Source: a virus. From it: DNA of 20,466 nucleotides. The translations under genes and the position numbers were made by a program. Shown piece after piece: positions 1,657-18,292 of the stretch. Numbering within the stretch: the stretch's first letter is position 1; each line of letters begins with the position of its first letter. The stretch lies in IMG/VR virus record IMGVR_UViG_3300005664_002601, positions 1 to 20,466 of that record. One strand, written 5' to 3'. The notes beneath the pieces are model-generated. The model was given only the letters and a program-made list of their open reading frames with translations. It did no database searches and was not told the DNA's origin.

Positions 1657-2199
1657 TTAAATCGCATTCTTGAAACATATTTTAGCAAAGTCATCTATAT
1701 TTTGGAGTATGTCTCCATTTTTTTCAGCATCCCGCAAACTTTTCAGAACCGCCCGCACAAAAACGGCACGGAAGCCGTCTGGGTCTGCCTTGGCGAGCAA
1801 ACAATCCATGTGCCAAAAACACACAACTTTGTCAACGCAGAGCTTTGCGATATTGGCGTCTGACTCACTAACCATGGGGTTGCACATCGATTTTGAATAA
1901 TGCGATTCGCGGTCAGAAAAGTAAGTACATTTTTCAAATTTATCAAATTTTGATGTGTTTTTTTGAGCCAGATTTTTACACTCTGCGGCGAGCTGCCAGG
2001 CTGCTGGCATATGGCCTTGTCCTCGGTTATATCTCACCCAATTTTTGAGAGCTTGCCCAATAATTTCCAGGTCATATTTTAATGTTTGCTCAATACATAT
2101 GCTGTAATAATCATCGTTTAAATTTTTGTCACAAAGCATCATCCGAGCCGCTGTACATATGGCTTCACTGACAAAAAGTTTCCTGTCAAAATCAGTCAT
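1657..2199 (-). CDS. Putative phage replication P-like (helicase-loader) protein
   Basis: The 180-residue protein follows an O-like initiator gene and overlaps its end by 8 bp, which suggests translational coupling. Residues about 35-75 contain a helical segment ending in W-x-R-Y-N-R and M-P-A-A-W-Q-L-A-x-E-C. That recalls the region found in lambda P and related phage replication proteins, where a Trp- and Pro-containing motif follows a helical bundle. Lambda P recruits the host DnaB helicase to the initiator at the origin, and the same job is inferred here from position and this weak motif. The protein is shorter than lambda P, which has about 230 residues. No Walker motif is present, so it is not a DnaC-type ATPase loader. 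It is the last gene of the minus-strand early operon. A helicase-binding or unrelated primosomal protein remains possible. Confidence 0.55.
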   Translation of the reverse strand: MTDFDRKLFVSEAICTAARMMLCDKNLNDDYYSICIEQTLKYDLEIIGQALKNWVRYNRGQGHMPAAWQLAAECKNLAQKNTSKFDKFEKCTYFSDRESHYSKSMCNPMVSESDANIAKLCVDKVVCFWHMDCLLAKADPDGFRAVFVRAVLKSLRDAEKNGDILQNIDDFAKICFKNAI

Positions 2200-3154
2200 T
2201 TTTATCTACTCCTTTTTCTTTTTTTTGCAATCTATCAACTAATTTTTTAACTTCCAAATCCTTACGCTGACTGTCTGTAAGTGGTATTTCTACCTCAGCA
2301 AGATACATTTTATTTTTTAAAAAATTGTGTGGGTCAGGGATAAATTGATCTTGTCCGGACTCAACCATTGCAAGCCATGACGCATCATTTTTTGCCCTGA
2401 GAAATTTTAAAATCCTCCCAATTTCTGAAACGTGATGACCAAGTCGCCATTGGTGATGAGCCATTTGTTTTTTTTGATCCGATACTTTTTTCGGGTATAG
2501 CTCCAAAAACTTGAGAAATTGGAAATCTTGAGGTGGCTCACTTGAGGAGCTTGGATAACTTAGCTGTGTGTGGCTTTTTTTTGTATGGTGTGTTTTTTCT
2601 TTTTCTTTATCTATATCTGCTTTATCTATATCTTCTTTATATATATCTAGCGAAACTTTTTGAAAAGTTTTTTTAAATAATTTCAAATCTGCATTATCCG
2701 CCTTTTGATTATTAGCCTTTGATATCAATAACTTACGGAAAGAAATCGTTATAAAAGTTACAAAGTTGTGTCGTAACTTTGAAAAGTTGTGTTCTAACTC
2801 TGCAGAGTTGTGTCGTAACTCTGCACAGTTGTGATCTAACTCTGCAGAGTTGTGTCGTAACTTTGCAGAGTTATGATTTAACTTTTCAGGTTCGTCATAT
2901 ATATAGAGTGTTATTTCGCCGATTTCCTCCAAGTATTTAAGGTACTCGACCAATGGTTTTGATCTAATACTAATCATATTACACCAGTCTTTGATCGGAT
3001 ACGTGACTGATTCTACCCCCTGATGACCCATTTTTTCCGCGATTATCTCCATAAGCATGTAGTACCGTGCATACCCTTTTAGGCCAAATTGATTCATAAC
3101 TAATCGAATATTTTCATCGCGGAGGGAATTTGTGTTGTGTTTAAACCACTTCAT
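2192..3154 (-). CDS. Phage replication initiator, O-like (DUF4373/Lin1244-type N-terminus)
   Basis: The protein has 320 residues from the preferred start. Its N-terminus (MKWFKHN, then D-E-N-I, then G-x-A-R-Y-Y-M-L-M-E-I-I-A-E) matches the winged-helix-like domain at the start of many phage replication proteins (DUF4373/Lin1244 type). Residues about 95-137 are six heptads of the form L-x-H-N-x-x-x, encoded by 21-bp DNA iterons. A charged linker of Asp-Ile-Asp-Lys repeats follows. The C-terminus has F-x-x-F-x-x-x-Y-P-K-K, then W, then F-I-P-D-P-x-N-F-L, a common end of phage initiators. An ATG at 3190 would add 12 residues but has no ribosome binding site. The ATG at 3154 is preceded by AGAGATC. 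It is expected to bind the iterons within its own gene and melt the neighbouring AT-rich DNA, as lambda O does. Confidence 0.8.
   Translation of the reverse strand: MKWFKHNTNSLRDENIRLVMNQFGLKGYARYYMLMEIIAEKMGHQGVESVTYPIKDWCNMISIRSKPLVEYLKYLEEIGEITLYIYDEPEKLNHNSAKLRHNSAELDHNCAELRHNSAELEHNFSKLRHNFVTFITISFRKLLISKANNQKADNADLKLFKKTFQKVSLDIYKEDIDKADIDKEKEKTHHTKKSHTQLSYPSSSSEPPQDFQFLKFLELYPKKVSDQKKQMAHHQWRLGHHVSEIGRILKFLRAKNDASWLAMVESGQDQFIPDPHNFLKNKMYLAEVEIPLTDSQRKDLEVKKLVDRLQKKEKGVDKND
2764..2889. repeat. Six 21-bp tandem iterons, probable replication origin
   Basis: Six uninterrupted 21-bp units start at 2764, 2785, 2806, 2827, 2848 and 2869. Every unit contains the dyad AGTT-N7-AACT. Three share the core AGTTGTGTCGTAACT and the outer ones diverge. 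They lie inside the initiator gene and encode six protein heptads. An AT-rich tract including runs of T and A lies at about 2590-2760, downstream of the iterons in the coding direction. That is the lambda ori layout of iterons followed by an AT-rich melting region inside O. Function is inferred from this arrangement. Confidence 0.75.
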
Positions 3155-3225
3155 TTTGATCTCTTTTGTGTTTTTTTTTGATAGGGGCATCGCATAGCAA
3201 TTATTAAATATACTCCGTTTATGAT

Positions 3226-3387: not shown

Positions 3388-3588
3388 TTACTTATTTGCT
3401 AGCTCATCTACTGTAACGTGTCCTAATGTTGCTTTTTCAATGGCGGCATAATATTTAGGTTCAATTTTTTTAGGATGTTTTTGCCAAAATTTAATAGTCT
3501 CGGCGTCAAGATTACAGACAGCAGCAATAAAATTACGCACCTGGCGATCTGGCAATGGATGGGTTTTTATATAATCATATAATTTCAT
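3388..3588 (-). CDS. Cro-like transcriptional repressor
   Basis: The 66-residue protein resembles the short Cro/YdaS-type helix-turn-helix regulators. Residues 12-35 would form the helix-turn-helix (V-R-N-F-I-A-A-V-C-N-L-D-A-E-T-I-K-F-W). Residues 41-63 carry the typical tail with K-I-x-P-x-x-Y-A-A-I-E-K-A-T and V-T-V-D-E-L. In this family that tail follows the recognition helix. The ribosome binding site AGGAGATAG lies just before the ATG. It heads the minus-strand early operon and is divergent from the plus-strand early operon, the standard place of cro. It probably binds operators in the 3589-3884 region and lowers transcription of both early operons. The length matches lambda Cro, which has 66 residues. 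Confidence 0.75.
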   Translation of the reverse strand: MKLYDYIKTHPLPDRQVRNFIAAVCNLDAETIKFWQKHPKKIEPKYYAAIEKATLGHVTVDELANK

Positions 3589-3653: not shown

Positions 3654-3768
3654 TATTATTGCTCCTACCTGTGTAGTCTAATCGCTGAATAATAAATTTT
3701 TTGCAGTACATTGCCGGCTAGATAACCCACCGCATTGCAATTAATAATCCCATGGCGTATCGTTTATT

Positions 3769-3836
3769 TAACGCTCAATAAAAATAAAAAAATAAAATAA
3801 TAAACATAAATATTAAATAATAATAAATGAGCGTTA
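3769..3836. promoter_or_regulatory. Candidate operator: 9-bp inverted repeat around AT-rich spacer
   Basis: TAACGCTCA (3769-3777) and TGAGCGTTA (3828-3836) are exact reverse complements 50 bp apart, one on each side of the probable plus-strand early promoter. The same pair occurs at 9641-9673, and the right arm with its flank (ATGAGCGTTATT) is identical over 12 bp at both places. Repetition at two loci suggests a specific DNA-binding protein. Confidence 0.45.
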
Positions 3837-3884
3837 TTAATTAATATTAAGATAATTTTTATTAAAAATTTTAGGAGTGAAAAA

Positions 3885-4130
3885 ATGCAATACAGCATTG
3901 ATCTAAGCAAGATAATAATCAGACCACAAAATTACAGAGTAGAACTCTACGAAGATATAGCAATGATGATACGCACGTTATATGAGCATCATATAGACCA
4001 TACATATTTAGAGATGCAGTTAAATATGACGACAAACGATATCCTAAATTGTAATTTTACTCACGAACAATATTTAAGTTTAATAAATTTATATTTCGCG
4101 ACTACCAATAAACGTAAAAATATAATTTAA
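3885..4130 (+). CDS. Small helix-turn-helix-like protein, possible early regulator
   Basis: The 81-residue protein opens the plus-strand early operon behind the ribosome binding site TAGGAGTG. Its C-terminal half (about residues 25-70) reads as I-A-M-M-I-R-T-L, then T-Y-L-E-M-Q-L-N-M-T-T-N-D-I-L, then F-T-H-E-Q-Y-L-S-L-I. That helix, turn, helix and trailing helix pattern is like XRE-type domains, but the match is weak and no family can be named. By position it could be the immunity repressor or an antiterminator-like early regulator. It lacks the S24 peptidase half of lambda CI. Lys and Asn content is high, as in its neighbours. Confidence 0.45.
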   Translation: MQYSIDLSKIIIRPQNYRVELYEDIAMMIRTLYEHHIDHTYLEMQLNMTTNDILNCNFTHEQYLSLINLYFATTNKRKNII

Positions 4131-4177
4131 TAAAATTTAAATAATATTTTTAAAAATCAAATAAAAGGAGATTAAAA

Positions 4178-4396
4178 ATGGAAAAATTAATTGATTACCC
4201 AGGCTTAGTTTTAGAACGTAAAAAAGGAGAAAAAATAATAATAAACGGTGATATTATCATTGATGTTGCTGAGATAATTAAATCAAGAGTAAGACTAAGA
4301 ATAATCGCCCCCAAAGGGGTATCAATAAACCGCGAAGAAATACAAATTAAAAAAGACAAGGAGAATAAAGATGTTAACACAAGCCCAAAAAGCTGA
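4178..4396 (+). CDS. csrA: CsrA/RsmA-family RNA-binding protein, phage-encoded
   Basis: This 72-residue protein has the CsrA pattern: L-V-L-E-R-K-K-G-E (10-18), hydrophobic strands through I-I-I-N-G-D-I-I-I-D-V, V-R-L-R-I (38-42), A-P-K (44-46), V-S-I (48-50) and N-R-E-E-I (51-55). The Arg of N-R-E-E-I equals Arg44 of E. coli CsrA and the N-terminal Leu and Arg needed for RNA binding are present. CsrA dimers bind GGA motifs in mRNA leaders and repress translation or alter stability. An N-terminal extension of about eight residues precedes the usual first strand, and no internal Met offers a shorter start. The ribosome binding site is AAGGAG. Its 3' end overlaps the exonuclease gene by 26 bp. 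CsrA copies on mobile elements are known in Legionella-type bacteria. It may reprogram host translation or control phage mRNAs, which is inference. Confidence 0.85.
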   Translation: MEKLIDYPGLVLERKKGEKIIINGDIIIDVAEIIKSRVRLRIIAPKGVSINREEIQIKKDKENKDVNTSPKS

Positions 4397-10131: not shown

Positions 10132-12987
10132 TTAAGAAACTAAAAATCCTGAAAAATTAGTAGAACCAATCCCTCCGGTTACTCTAACATTACTAGAAGT
10201 ATAGCCACCTACTACTATTTGTGGGAATACTGTATTACCTGCCGTTAATTTAACTAATAAACTCCCAGAAAAACCCAATAACCCACCAGAAGTAGGGACA
10301 CAAATAGATGGATTTACTGAGAATAAAGTATATGTCGTACTATTAGCAATTAAAGCTATTGTATATACATTATTATCTGGAACTAGAATACTATTCACAG
10401 TAACCGTTAATGTGAATTTATAATTGCCATTTACTGGTGCAGTAAATCTCCCGGTGGATGTTGAATAATTATTATTTTGATCAAAAGATATTCCATCACA
10501 AATAATATTATATACCGCACCAGCACCTGTTACCGATCCAGTCCCAGTTGATAAATAAGAACTAAAACAACAATTTTTAGGAAGGTTTAAATTCCCGGAC
10601 TGTTGCATATCATATACGACTGTATTAGTTGTTCCAGTAGCGTATATCCTCATATTAGTACTGCCGGCGCGCGTCCCGATATACCAATCTGCAGTCCCAC
10701 CGGTAAACAGTGCTAACTGCGCATAACCATTGGCGGAATCCCCCCGTCGTGCGTAAAACGAGCCTTCATTCGCAGTGCCGGTCAAGGTAGTGGTGGCGCT
10801 GATCACTGTGGCGGCTGACGCGCCTGTCGCGGTCAAGCTGCCGGTGGGGGTAAAGGTGAACGGAACCGAGGTGGAATTCAACTGGAAGGTAATGTTTTGT
10901 GAATTTGCTAACGTACCAATTGACCAATCTTCAACGCCACTGGTCCATAAGTGTAGTTGTGCATAACCGCCTGCTAGTGTCCCGCGATCTAAAACCACTG
11001 ATGCTTCATTTCCTCCCGTAACTGAGGTGGTTATTATCCTCCAACTTGCGGAAATTGCCGACGTGCTAAGTACCGCTATACCATTCCCCGGGTCATAGAA
11101 AAACCCAGAGTTAGTATATGGAGCAGCGAAAGCACCACCGCCAAGCATAATCTGATTACTGCCAAGAAAAGCCGTGCTGGCCATCGTAGTGGTGCTGTTA
11201 AAATAAGGGATCCCGCCAGATATCCCTGCACTTAATCCAGTCCCGCCGCGCGGCACGCTAAGTTGCCCTAGCCAGCCTGCTGTTACACTTGTAGCCTGTA
11301 ATAATGCAGTCGTTGGCGTGCCACCTAATGTTAAGCTCACGTTAGTATCATTAACCCGCGTTAATGCAGCACCAGTAATATCACTCCCGCTAATCGCTGA
11401 CCAAACAGGGGCGGCCGATACTGTCCCCGTCCCGGTTTGTGTCAAAAATCGTTTAACCGTTGTCGTATTGCCTGCTAGCTTGGACAACGTATTTGCGGCC
11501 GACGCATATAATGTGTCACCTAGTGTATAGGTACTGATATTAGTCCCACCATTGGTAATAGGGAGTACACTCACGCTTGTCAAATTTTTGCTGGCATCTG
11601 TAAATACTATTTGTGATGGCGTCAGTGAGGCAATATTTAAGACGCCGGTGCTGTTAAACGATGCGATTTTTGTCGAAAATCCGGTATAAAACGCGATCTC
11701 AGTCGTCGAGTTAGCACTAGTGCTAGTGGCTTGTAAAAATAGGCCATTACTGGTGGTTCTGGTGCTTGACCCGCCGACGCGGAGTTGGAAAATTGATGCG
11801 CCACCGTCGCCGCTTACCGGGTTACTGCCCATCACAATCGCACCGTAGTCATGGGAGCCAACTGTGCCATTAGACGCTAATCCGGCCAATAGCAGCCCAT
11901 CATTAGCAGGGGCAAATGATCGTTTGGACTGTAAGATTAATAAGGGAGTTATATTGCCTGCTCCGCCCCCACTAACATCTAGTGCAGTACCGTCATAGGT
12001 AAGATTAGCGTTAGTGGATGGCGCAACTGCTGCACCACCCCCAATAACTAATTGATTAGCACCAAGAACTGGGCTAGATGCTATTGTAGTAGTAGAGCTA
12101 TAATATGGGATGCCGCCAGATGTTCCTGAACTTAATCCAGTCCCACCACGCGTAACACTAAGTTGCCCTAGCCAACCGGCTGTGATACTAGTTGTTTGTA
12201 ATAATGCAGTGCTTGGCGTTCCACCTAAAGACAAAATAATATTAGTATCATTAACAGTAGTTAATGCGTTCCCAGTAATATCACCTGCGTTAATAGTAGA
12301 CCATACGGGAGGAGCTGATATTGTCCCAGTTCCAGTTTGACTAAGGTATTGTTTCCCCGCAGTCGTATTGCCGGACAGTTTTGCCAAGGTATTGGGGGCA
12401 GACGAATAGAGGGTATCGCCCAATGTATAGGTGTTGATATTAGTGCCACCATTAGTAGTAGGCAATATACCACTTACTTTGGTAGTTAAATCTACTGCGT
12501 TATTATTGATTTTGATAGTGGTAATTGCATTATTGGCAATAGTTAATATGCCAGTCCCCGTTATATTTGCATCGCCACTGATTGTGTTTGTAACCCAGGC
12601 AGCGCCTGATCCTATTAGTATATTTCCTGATATAGCAGACGTATTTCCAAGATTATTGCCATTAATTTTTGATACAGTCGGATTAGGATATGTCCCGGAT
12701 AAATCACCAGATGCGCTACCAGTAGGGGGATAACTTGCTGATTGAATAGCAACGATAGTAGGTAACCCGGATAAATTATCAGTTGTTCCACCGTCAATAG
12801 TTGCATAAATATGATTTGTTCCCTGCGCAATATTATCTGATGTAGTATTTTGCTGAGTATATAACAGTGTTTGGGTACGTGTTTCTTTTTTACTTGGTAA
12901 AAGTCCTGAACTATCAGATGTTTCCTGAATATCATTCCCAGATAATGTTACTATTGGGTCAAGTTCAACAATTTTTTTATTAGCCAT
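10132..12987 (-). CDS. Modular tail fibre with C1q-like C-terminal domain
   Basis: The 951-residue protein is rich in Gly, Thr, Ser and Asn and is organised in repeats. Residues 175-332 and 475-632 are homologous copies exactly 300 residues apart, each starting L-P-x-T-N-G-G-T-N and containing G-W-L-G-Q-L-S-V-x-R-G-G-T-G-L-S. A shorter pair, 660-705 and 740-785, shares G-Y-A-Q-L and D-W-x-I-G-T. Residues 806-951 form a C1q/TNF-like jelly roll: D-G-I-S-F-D, G-R-F-T-A-P-V-N-G-N-Y-K-F. C1q-like ends of phage fibres usually trimerise and bind the host surface. Its GC content is uneven: 39 of 60 bases are G or C at 10801-10860, far above the flanking structural genes, suggesting mosaic recombination. 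The N-terminus (MANKKIVELDP) probably attaches to the tail. Confidence 0.82.
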   Translation of the reverse strand: MANKKIVELDPIVTLSGNDIQETSDSSGLLPSKKETRTQTLLYTQQNTTSDNIAQGTNHIYATIDGGTTDNLSGLPTIVAIQSASYPPTGSASGDLSGTYPNPTVSKINGNNLGNTSAISGNILIGSGAAWVTNTISGDANITGTGILTIANNAITTIKINNNAVDLTTKVSGILPTTNGGTNINTYTLGDTLYSSAPNTLAKLSGNTTAGKQYLSQTGTGTISAPPVWSTINAGDITGNALTTVNDTNIILSLGGTPSTALLQTTSITAGWLGQLSVTRGGTGLSSGTSGGIPYYSSTTTIASSPVLGANQLVIGGGAAVAPSTNANLTYDGTALDVSGGGAGNITPLLILQSKRSFAPANDGLLLAGLASNGTVGSHDYGAIVMGSNPVSGDGGASIFQLRVGGSSTRTTSNGLFLQATSTSANSTTEIAFYTGFSTKIASFNSTGVLNIASLTPSQIVFTDASKNLTSVSVLPITNGGTNISTYTLGDTLYASAANTLSKLAGNTTTVKRFLTQTGTGTVSAAPVWSAISGSDITGAALTRVNDTNVSLTLGGTPTTALLQATSVTAGWLGQLSVPRGGTGLSAGISGGIPYFNSTTTMASTAFLGSNQIMLGGGAFAAPYTNSGFFYDPGNGIAVLSTSAISASWRIITTSVTGGNEASVVLDRGTLAGGYAQLHLWTSGVEDWSIGTLANSQNITFQLNSTSVPFTFTPTGSLTATGASAATVISATTTLTGTANEGSFYARRGDSANGYAQLALFTGGTADWYIGTRAGSTNMRIYATGTTNTVVYDMQQSGNLNLPKNCCFSSYLSTGTGSVTGAGAVYNIICDGISFDQNNNYSTSTGRFTAPVNGNYKFTLTVTVNSILVPDNNVYTIALIANSTTYTLFSVNPSICVPTSGGLLGFSGSLLVKLTAGNTVFPQIVVGGYTSSNVRVTGGIGSTNFSGFLVS
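11092..11565 (-). repeat. Tail-fibre internal duplication, copy 2
   Basis: This segment encodes residues 475-632 and is the homologue of 11992-12465, offset by 900 bp in DNA and exactly 300 residues in protein. Long runs are identical in protein, including G-W-L-G-Q-L-S-V. It has probably diverged since duplication or was imported from a related fibre. Confidence 0.75.
11992..12465 (-). repeat. Tail-fibre internal duplication, copy 1
   Basis: This segment encodes residues 175-332 of the fibre and pairs with the copy at 11092-11565. The two could recombine and delete or add one 300-residue module, changing fibre length. Confidence 0.75.
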
Positions 12988-16198: not shown

Positions 16199-18292
16199 TT
16201 ATTTATCACCATAAATATTTATTAATAAAGCTTTTAACGCATCTGTGGAATTTGATGATGGTTCTTTTTTAGCAGCATTGTTAATCATTCTATTTACAAT
16301 AGCTTCTCTTACGGTAGGAGAATGTAGAAATTTTGATGCTCCCCTACTTAATAAACCAGCACCTATAATACCAAGTCCACCAGCGATAGGATCAGGAATT
16401 GAATCAGGGAAGAAAGATTGGCCACCAGCATAACCAGTCATAATAGGAAGAAAATATTCTGCCATTCTTTGACCAGTATGAGGATTAAACATCCTATTAA
16501 GAGAATTAGAATTGATTTTGGCTAATTCTGATATCCTATCCAGTTCTTCTCTTTCAGCAGCATTCGGGACTAATGCTTTTCTTTGTCTGGGGCCAAGTTT
16601 AGTATCACCCCAGTGGGTAGCAAGATTTAATGGATTTAAAGTACGCTTATCTTCAGCACCTTTTAAAGCACGAGATAAATAAGAATATTTTACTAAGTTT
16701 TTATCTTCTTCCGGGAGTTTATCCATTAATTTTTTAAGTTTATTGCCTTTATCGCTTGTACTACCAGTAACTATAAAATCATTAATAAGATTTTCTGCAT
16801 CTTTTTGACCATTTAAATATTGATAGATATCTTTATCTAAAAAAGAAGAAAAATTATTTGCATAATTCTTTTCAGCATTATCATAAGCAGATTTTAATTT
16901 TTCATTCCCGCTATTATTAATGGAATACTTAATATCATCTTTTAAAGATTTAGATAAGCTGCTAAATATTTTACTTTGGTATCTATCTTCTGGAGTAGAA
17001 GATTTACGACTTATTCTTGAAAGTTCTCTTAATTTTCCAGAAAGAATATTAGCTTCTTTTAAAGAAGGATATTTTATTTCATTTGACCCAGGGAGATAAA
17101 ATTTTTCACCAGCTATAGAAGCTTGTATTTTAGATTCTTTAAAAGGTGTATGATAATTTACAAGCCTATTTAATATTTTTTTATATTTTGGTTCATATTT
17201 TAAAAAATGTTGATCATTAATTATATCTGAATATTCTTTAGCTTTATTTGAAAAATTAGATAAATCAAGTTTTAAATTATTTTCATCTGCAATTTTATTT
17301 GCTTCATTATATAAAGCATTTTTTTTGACAGTTTCTTCTTGATAAACTTTATTTAAAGATTTACCTAATTTTTCAGGTACTTCAAGAGGAGAAGTATTCC
17401 CTAAATATCCAGTTAAAACTTTATTACCACGATTTTCAATATTTTTTGAAATTCTGGCTGTCAAGTCATCACTTCCAGAAAATGGGTTTTTTGATAAAGA
17501 ATTTTCAGATACACGTTTAAGAAATGGAGAACCTATAATGTCTCCTAGACCAGTTTCAATCCCTCTATTAATTTCTAAATTTCTTTTTAATTCTTTAGCC
17601 GTTAATTTTCCACGGAAATAGTTCTTAGCCCCTTTAAATATTGAACCAGCCCCCTTCAATAATGAATCTGTTGCGAGGGATACGCCGCCGCCAAGTAATG
17701 CTCCTTCTCCTCGACCCTCTGGAGATTGAACAGCACCATATAATGCACTACCTATCCCCCTTCTTGCTAAAGTTGGAAGAAATTCATTTCCTCCCAATTT
17801 AGATGCAATTTTACTAGCATAAGGGATGGATTTACCTGCTATGGCTGCTCGCATAGCATTTAATGGAGCGCCTCCAGAAATAAATCCAGCAATATCCCCT
17901 GCAACCTCGCCTATATCATAAGCAGTTCCTTCACTACTCCTTGATAAAGGAATTTGCATACTATCAGGAGCAATCATATTCGCTACTCCTTTAGGGAAAT
18001 TTACAAGAGAATCTCCAGCACCTAAAATAAAATCTAAATTTGTCTTTAAATGAGGTTTTAATAAATCACCAAAAGCTTGTAAATAACTCCGATCGTCACT
18101 AGAATTTTCATTTCCATCAACTAAAACACCACCTTCGCGCATAGCTATTTCGTCATAATCTGTACTAGAATTTTCATTTCCATCAACTAAAATACCGCCT
18201 TCGCGCATAGCTATTTCGTCATAATCTGTCGGATTTGACCCCGGATAATCAAAATTATTGTAATAATTATCATCTTCTTCATAATCTTGCAT
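16199..18292 (-). CDS. P22 gp16-like DNA ejection protein
   Basis: The 697-residue protein begins with an acidic tail containing two 22-residue tandem repeats (T-D-Y-D-E-I-A-M-R-E-G-G). Gly-, Ala- and Ile-rich segments follow at about 90-210. The middle (about 250-560) is a long Lys- and Asn-rich helical part, and a hydrophobic C-terminal segment lies at about 620-665 (P-I-A-G-G-L-G-I-I-G-A-G-L-L). It is the third of three co-directional genes in the order small, medium, large, as in P22 genes 7, 20 and 16. P22 gp16 has 609 residues, is ejected with the DNA and helps it cross the membrane. The start is two bases after the preceding stop codon. Similarity is judged by composition, order and size rather than a fixed motif. 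Confidence 0.6.
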   Translation of the reverse strand: MQDYEEDDNYYNNFDYPGSNPTDYDEIAMREGGILVDGNENSSTDYDEIAMREGGVLVDGNENSSDDRSYLQAFGDLLKPHLKTNLDFILGAGDSLVNFPKGVANMIAPDSMQIPLSRSSEGTAYDIGEVAGDIAGFISGGAPLNAMRAAIAGKSIPYASKIASKLGGNEFLPTLARRGIGSALYGAVQSPEGRGEGALLGGGVSLATDSLLKGAGSIFKGAKNYFRGKLTAKELKRNLEINRGIETGLGDIIGSPFLKRVSENSLSKNPFSGSDDLTARISKNIENRGNKVLTGYLGNTSPLEVPEKLGKSLNKVYQEETVKKNALYNEANKIADENNLKLDLSNFSNKAKEYSDIINDQHFLKYEPKYKKILNRLVNYHTPFKESKIQASIAGEKFYLPGSNEIKYPSLKEANILSGKLRELSRISRKSSTPEDRYQSKIFSSLSKSLKDDIKYSINNSGNEKLKSAYDNAEKNYANNFSSFLDKDIYQYLNGQKDAENLINDFIVTGSTSDKGNKLKKLMDKLPEEDKNLVKYSYLSRALKGAEDKRTLNPLNLATHWGDTKLGPRQRKALVPNAAEREELDRISELAKINSNSLNRMFNPHTGQRMAEYFLPIMTGYAGGQSFFPDSIPDPIAGGLGIIGAGLLSRGASKFLHSPTVREAIVNRMINNAAKKEPSSNSTDALKALLINIYGDK
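18099..18230 (-). repeat. 66-bp tandem duplication in the gp16-like gene
   Basis: Units 18099-18164 and 18165-18230 are identical at 63 of 66 bases. In frame they encode two 22-residue repeats differing at one residue (I or V). Such high identity points to a recent slippage event. Confidence 0.85.

Follow-up and report, generated by a model that had tools for sequence, protein, structure and literature searches.

A putative replication origin built as a helically phased iteron array into the Lin1244_N-family initiator gene of a phage contig

The DNA analyzed here, referred to as the window, is a 20,466-base linear virus contig from IMG/VR, which may be a fragment. On its minus strand, positions 2192-3190 encode a 332-aa replication initiator of the Lin1244_N family, an assignment made from Pfam, PHROG and the annotation of homologues. 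The N-terminus (residues 15-55) matches PF14297, Lin1244_N (formerly DUF4373), with E=2.1e-6 and 28.8 bits against a cut-off of 25 bits; the protein hits PHROG families of replication initiation and primosomal proteins (E 2.4e-6 to 2.6e-5), its homologues carry the annotation origin specific replication initiation factor or DUF4373, and in an alignment with 39 relatives it keeps the W, H and E that are invariant there. A Pfam scan of the protein at E<=0.1 returned Lin1244_N alone, with no Phage_rep_O (lambda O-type) domain, which bears out an earlier reading made from the letters alone (the sequence-only reading) that this is a non-lambda O-like protein with a DUF4373-type N-terminus. Initiation is probably at codon 13 (position 3154), a start favored because homologues begin with MKWFKH. 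The C-terminal domain (2231-2590, minus strand) is the probable contact to a helicase loader or primosome: residues 189-310 match the primosomal protein family phrog_9327 (E=2.6e-5), and blastp within a set of 139 sequences finds weak similarity to the C-terminal ends of relatives (best E=0.003).

The downstream end of the initiator gene is overlapped by a 180-aa ORF (1657-2199, minus strand), whose position parallels that of annotated loader or helicase genes beside homologues, and which by this position is a putative helicase-loader gene; it matched no Pfam or PHROG family above cut-off, and its single-sequence AlphaFold model (pLDDT 36) is unusable. Beyond the start of the initiator gene, on the opposite strand, lie RecE- and RecT-like recombination genes (Pfam, PHROG). 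Two other genes were also observed: (i) A phage-borne CsrA homologue (4178-4396, plus strand; Pfam CsrA, E=8e-13) immediately precedes the RecE-like gene and may tune host or phage translation. (ii) A small YdaS/Cro-like regulator (3388-3588, minus strand; E=1.8e-5, below the curated cut-off) adjoins a very AT-rich intergenic region, which is probably the early control region.

Within the initiator gene, at 2764-2889, lies an array of six 21-bp units, each with an exact match to AGTT-N7-AACT. The matches start at 2764, 2785, 2806, 2827, 2848 and 2869, a constant spacing of 21 bp, and the window has no others; shuffled sequences average 0.51 matches, with a maximum of 3. Tandem Repeats Finder and a separate repeat finder both recovered the identical array, in agreement with the sequence-only reading of six uninterrupted repeats; the sixth unit has a degenerate spacer (TTCAGG, to 2889). 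Read on the minus strand, the array encodes KLNHNSA KLRHNSA ELDHNCA ELRHNSA ELEHNFS KLRHNFV, so the six L-x-H-N heptads described earlier are indeed there, as six occurrences of the pattern K/E-L-x-H-N-x-x. One unit equals both seven codons and two helical turns. Listing the half-sites gives 12, two per unit, which alternate in orientation and are spaced 11/10 bp throughout, i.e. every 10.5 bp, so that all of them fall on a single face of the helix. A lone degenerate dyad of the form AACT-N8-AGTT (AACTTTTCAAAAAGTT; 2654-2669, minus strand) also appeared in the half-site list, between the array and the purine tract described below.

To place the array in the protein, the initiator was modeled by AlphaFold with 40 sequences (model m017ca370aa28, in which residue numbers are those of the ORF minus 12). 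The winged-helix domain is modeled confidently, with pLDDT 86-97 in most blocks; a Foldseek search with the model gave no PDB match at E<=0.001, and its viral matches are loosely annotated. The array is bracketed directly by the two wing strands: in the coding direction, strand 1 (ITLYIY; 2897-2914, minus strand; AlphaFold E81-86, alignment A6) comes just before it and strand 2 (FITISF; 2738-2755, minus strand; AlphaFold E134-139 in a block of pLDDT about 90, alignment A6) just after. In the 40-sequence alignment, FITISF falls opposite the second wing strand of the relatives, where these share the conserved motif [IV]x[IV]xxPNLLK; MAFFT places this strand differently with 12 and with 40 sequences, and the 40-sequence version is the one that agrees with AlphaFold. 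The array-encoded model residues 91-132 have pLDDT 43-58 except for the last few, and the array peptide is predicted to be a disordered loop in the wing. From the flanking AlphaFold strands and the 40-sequence alignment we take the array to be a wing insertion rather than an inter-domain linker. A linker role for the heptads, as suggested earlier, is not supported on this evidence; they would instead form a disordered loop that enlarges the wing of the DNA-binding domain.

Long wings recur in the family. Wing spacing, counted by motif, is basally 11-12 residues and exceeds 17 in 16 of about 70 clusters, with the window longest at 56; one additional long-wing case (L149) was missed by the motif. 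Ten wing inserts show repetition at helical lags beyond what their peptides account for (L119, L117, L148, L014, L020, L099, L103, L146, L131 and L149; P<=0.015), five fell short of significance in this test (L122, L132, L102, L142 and L025), and L101 was left out of the count. The window's own wing is negative in a direct test at lag 10/11 (P=0.974), because its half-sites alternate in orientation, i.e. are inverted; its 21-bp period is moreover a whole number of codons (seven).

After the array in the coding direction comes a tract rich in A/T and in purines (about 2574-2690, minus strand), a candidate unwinding element picked out by composition, TRF and family comparison. It is 76-82% AT, with the coding strand up to 82% purine, is strongest at 2591-2690, and contains a 15-bp repeat at 2605-2648 (TRF, period 15 x2.9). 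The AT-rich tract of the sequence-only reading, likened there to that of lambda ori, is therefore present and in the same relative place. The purine tract is a property of the family: on the coding strand, 66 members have a median score of 29.6, against 14.5 in 146 neighboring ORFs (P=5.5e-22).

Distant homologues were found by tblastn in phages of Vibrio, Escherichia, Pantoea, Pseudomonas and Pseudoalteromonas, and alignment-based scans yielded 130 distinct IMG/VR loci and six genome loci, four of these being Desulfovibrionaceae-type MAGs. Single-protein scans of IMG/VR and of GTDB genomes gave no close relatives of the window protein, nor did a neighboring structural gene used as query. Many of the relatives have arrays of their own at the corresponding point of the gene, with motifs unrelated to that of the window: boxes of TCCGGA or TCATGA at 11-bp intervals, units of 22 and 33 bp, and, in Vibrio phages, three 21-bp units in the gene, e.g. 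21-bp x3 encoding ESVISHD. We measured autocorrelation in the DNA before the purine tract of 57 family representatives, corrected by synonymous shuffles, and found peaks at lags 10, 11, 20, 22 and 33. Mean z at lag 11 is 1.21 in these 57 and 0.08 in 107 neighboring ORFs (P=1.2e-8); since this lag does not span whole codons, the signal cannot originate from a repetitive peptide. Mean periodicity z is 2.43 in seven members with wing inserts and 1.04 in 49 others, and about a third of the representatives individually exceed z=1.64. Since the grouping into representatives used a simple ratio of string similarity and not a phylogeny, these P values are indicative. In three Desulfovibrionaceae-type loci (L148 5201-5520, L149 5201-5520 and L146 3658-3977) we observed two different arrays per gene, a variable one in the wing, of the CAACTTCG, TACCC or GTTTCGC type, and a second one of TCCGGA boxes that follows the domain.

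The AGTT-N7-AACT array itself is absent from every homologue found. A motif search of IMG/VR gave a single match of three units, in low-complexity sequence at an unrelated place, and 108 two-unit stretches; none of the loci fetched from these matches encodes a Lin1244_N domain by HMM. Formally, then, the ground on which the sequence-only reading would fall, unrelated repeats in homologous phages, applies at the level of sequence, but the position of the arrays and their 10-11-bp phasing are conserved, a combination expected of an initiator co-evolving with its binding site.

We propose, with a probability of roughly 0.8, that the array is the initiator-binding half of a phage replication origin that lies within the gene of the initiator itself. 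The family of the gene, the DNA-level constraint on the array (below), the AT/purine tract and the phased arrays of homologues all point to an initiator gene carrying its own putative origin, as the sequence-only reading had it. The nearby RecE/RecT-like recombination genes also count in favor of this. The N-terminal winged-helix domain would bind the half-sites, two per unit and 12 in total, one per helical turn, so that the initiator would assemble with the DNA into a nucleoprotein complex along one face of the helix. Strain from this complex may melt the A/T- and purine-rich tract ~75-190 bp further in the coding direction, and the C-terminal domain would then recruit the helicase loader and helicase. 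Binding of the initiator to the half-sites, opening of the tract and a start of replication at this place are all inferred. GC skew was considered as origin evidence and rejected; in the window, it is dominated by gene orientation and is therefore uninformative on the origin. As the contig may be a fragment, the phage may also have another origin.

Iteron-plasmid initiators repress their own transcription at control sites, and the array could likewise serve autoregulation besides, or in place of, replication. We regard it as unlikely that the array is an autoregulatory operator, where binding represses or roadblocks transcription of the gene, with the origin elsewhere, e.g. in the AT-rich intergenic stretch 3777-3860. 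Phased inverted half-sites are typical of repressor arrays as well, and 3751-4250 is the most AT-rich part of the region (GC 0.23), with A/T repeats; but the array lies past the start of the gene and within it, a purine tract accompanies such arrays across the family on their downstream side, as at known phage origins, and there is no obvious reason for purely regulatory sites to occupy the same place in such diverged genes.

A second alternative puts the constraint in the protein, with the heptads serving as a charged linker, a coiled coil or a DNA-contacting extension of the wing, and the DNA repeat a by-product of duplicating a codon unit. The period of 21 bp is after all seven codons, and a peptide placed within the wing could lengthen its DNA contacts. 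We simulated 200,000 arrays with the 42-residue array peptide fixed and synonymous codons drawn from the window's own genes; they reached at most four copies of AGTT-N7-AACT, and this once, against six in the real array. The K/E codons of the array are AAG/GAG in all six units (third-base G, background 0.17), and the Asn codons are AAC in all six (background 0.17). Units differ among themselves in 8 of 21 columns, none of them among the 8 motif columns and 8 among the 13 others. Codon choice in the array tracks the DNA motif, not protein or codon usage. Recent duplication could partly explain the uniformity of the units and mimic codon bias; we argue that the half-sites are held by selection, since the other columns of the units have diverged. 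The protein alternative also has to contend with the predicted disorder of the loop and with relatives whose peptides here are unrelated and whose 11-bp DNA periods are out of codon register, and we consider it very unlikely. That the array is a neutral recent tandem duplication without function is scarcely credible: repeats do expand readily and the window holds other coding repeats, but every half-site is intact despite the divergence at 8 of 21 columns, and relatives repeatedly have phased arrays here with unrelated motifs.

An origin within the initiator gene has precedents, which have these same parts in this order. In lambda and Stx phages, iterons and an AT-rich tract lie in the middle of gene O, with six iterons in versions from Stx phages, and the number of iterons varies among relatives (PMC7466680); the window shares the mid-gene iterons and the adjoining AT-rich tract. 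It differs in that its initiator is of another family (no lambda O-type Pfam match), in the motif and the 21-bp unit, and in that its array is predicted to lie inside the wing of the DNA-binding domain; and where lambda has the helicase-recruiting gene P adjacent, the window has a candidate loader ORF by position only. The oriL of SPP1 lies within gene 38 and is bound by its product gp38 (G38P) (PMC6316719), and an in-gene origin has been proposed for ORF20 of staphylococcal 80alpha (PMC5499656). In these systems the direct repeats lie in the gene of the protein that binds them, beside an AT-rich unwinding element, and the protein has a helicase loader as partner (PMC6316719, PMC5499656); the window would share this arrangement, with a candidate loader. 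SPP1 differs in having a second origin (oriR), and the family searches with the window protein gave no G38P-type match. For Francisella phage KIRK, a putative origin in ORF43, a sequence-based proposal only, has putative iterons in an AT-rich region, a lambda-like organization and an adjacent G39P-type gene, but its initiator is annotated Phg_2220_C and it has four repeats (PMC7924643). Closer to the window are the Lin1244_N proteins of Vibrio, Escherichia and Pantoea phages, with the same N-terminal domain followed by repeats and then a purine tract; their motifs are of the TCATGA type, their arrays come after the wHTH domain rather than in the wing, and they lack AGTT-N7-AACT.

Thus the window has several direct repeats inside an initiator gene with an adjacent AT-rich element, as do in-gene origins elsewhere, and also the Lin1244_N pattern derived here, an in-gene phased array with a downstream purine tract. 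On present evidence, its initiator would work like lambda O but belongs to Lin1244_N. A full-text search, with subscription papers mostly outside its reach, found no link between the Lin1244_N family and in-gene origins; DUF4373 led to iron biology of Bacteroidetes and Lin1244 to nothing. To the in-gene phage origins already known (lambda O, SPP1 gene 38), the window would add a variant whose array is predicted to sit in the wing of the initiator.

Comparison of ~60 distant relatives suggests that in-gene origins are common among Lin1244_N initiators, in some cases within the DNA-binding domain. We lean slightly towards a broader reading, in which Lin1244_N initiators are a wide class of phage replication systems with the origin in or just behind their own DNA-binding domain and one half-site for each turn of 10.5-11 bp, in many cases not in register with the codons. 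The motifs would change quickly, with the pitch, the order of the parts and the purine tract downstream all constant, and in a wing subclass that includes the window, origin DNA would encode a disordered wing extension. A helically phased array plus purine tract inside a Lin1244_N gene would give a sequence rule for finding origins in a large uncharacterized family of phage and prophage initiators. It would also be a natural system for asking how a single stretch of DNA accommodates both a reading frame and a helical phase: at 21 bp, 7 codons equal 2 turns, and at 33 bp, 11 codons equal 3 turns, each of 11 bp. With so many relatives, array motifs can also be set against DNA-binding domains, a route to initiator/origin co-evolution.

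Other features of the window are recorded here: (i) A 951-aa repetitive protein (10132-12987, minus strand) has a C-terminal C1q-like domain (E=1.4e-8) and resembles a tail fibre or receptor-binding protein. (ii) An in-frame 66-bp tandem duplication (18098-18229, 96%) lies near the start of a 697-aa gene at 16199-18292. (iii) Two 27-bp near-palindromic direct repeats (TTGGCATAGTCCTATGGGTCATGCCAA) at 1074-1148, 96% identical and 48 bp apart start to start, have no convincing genes around them and are a possible operator or att-like element.
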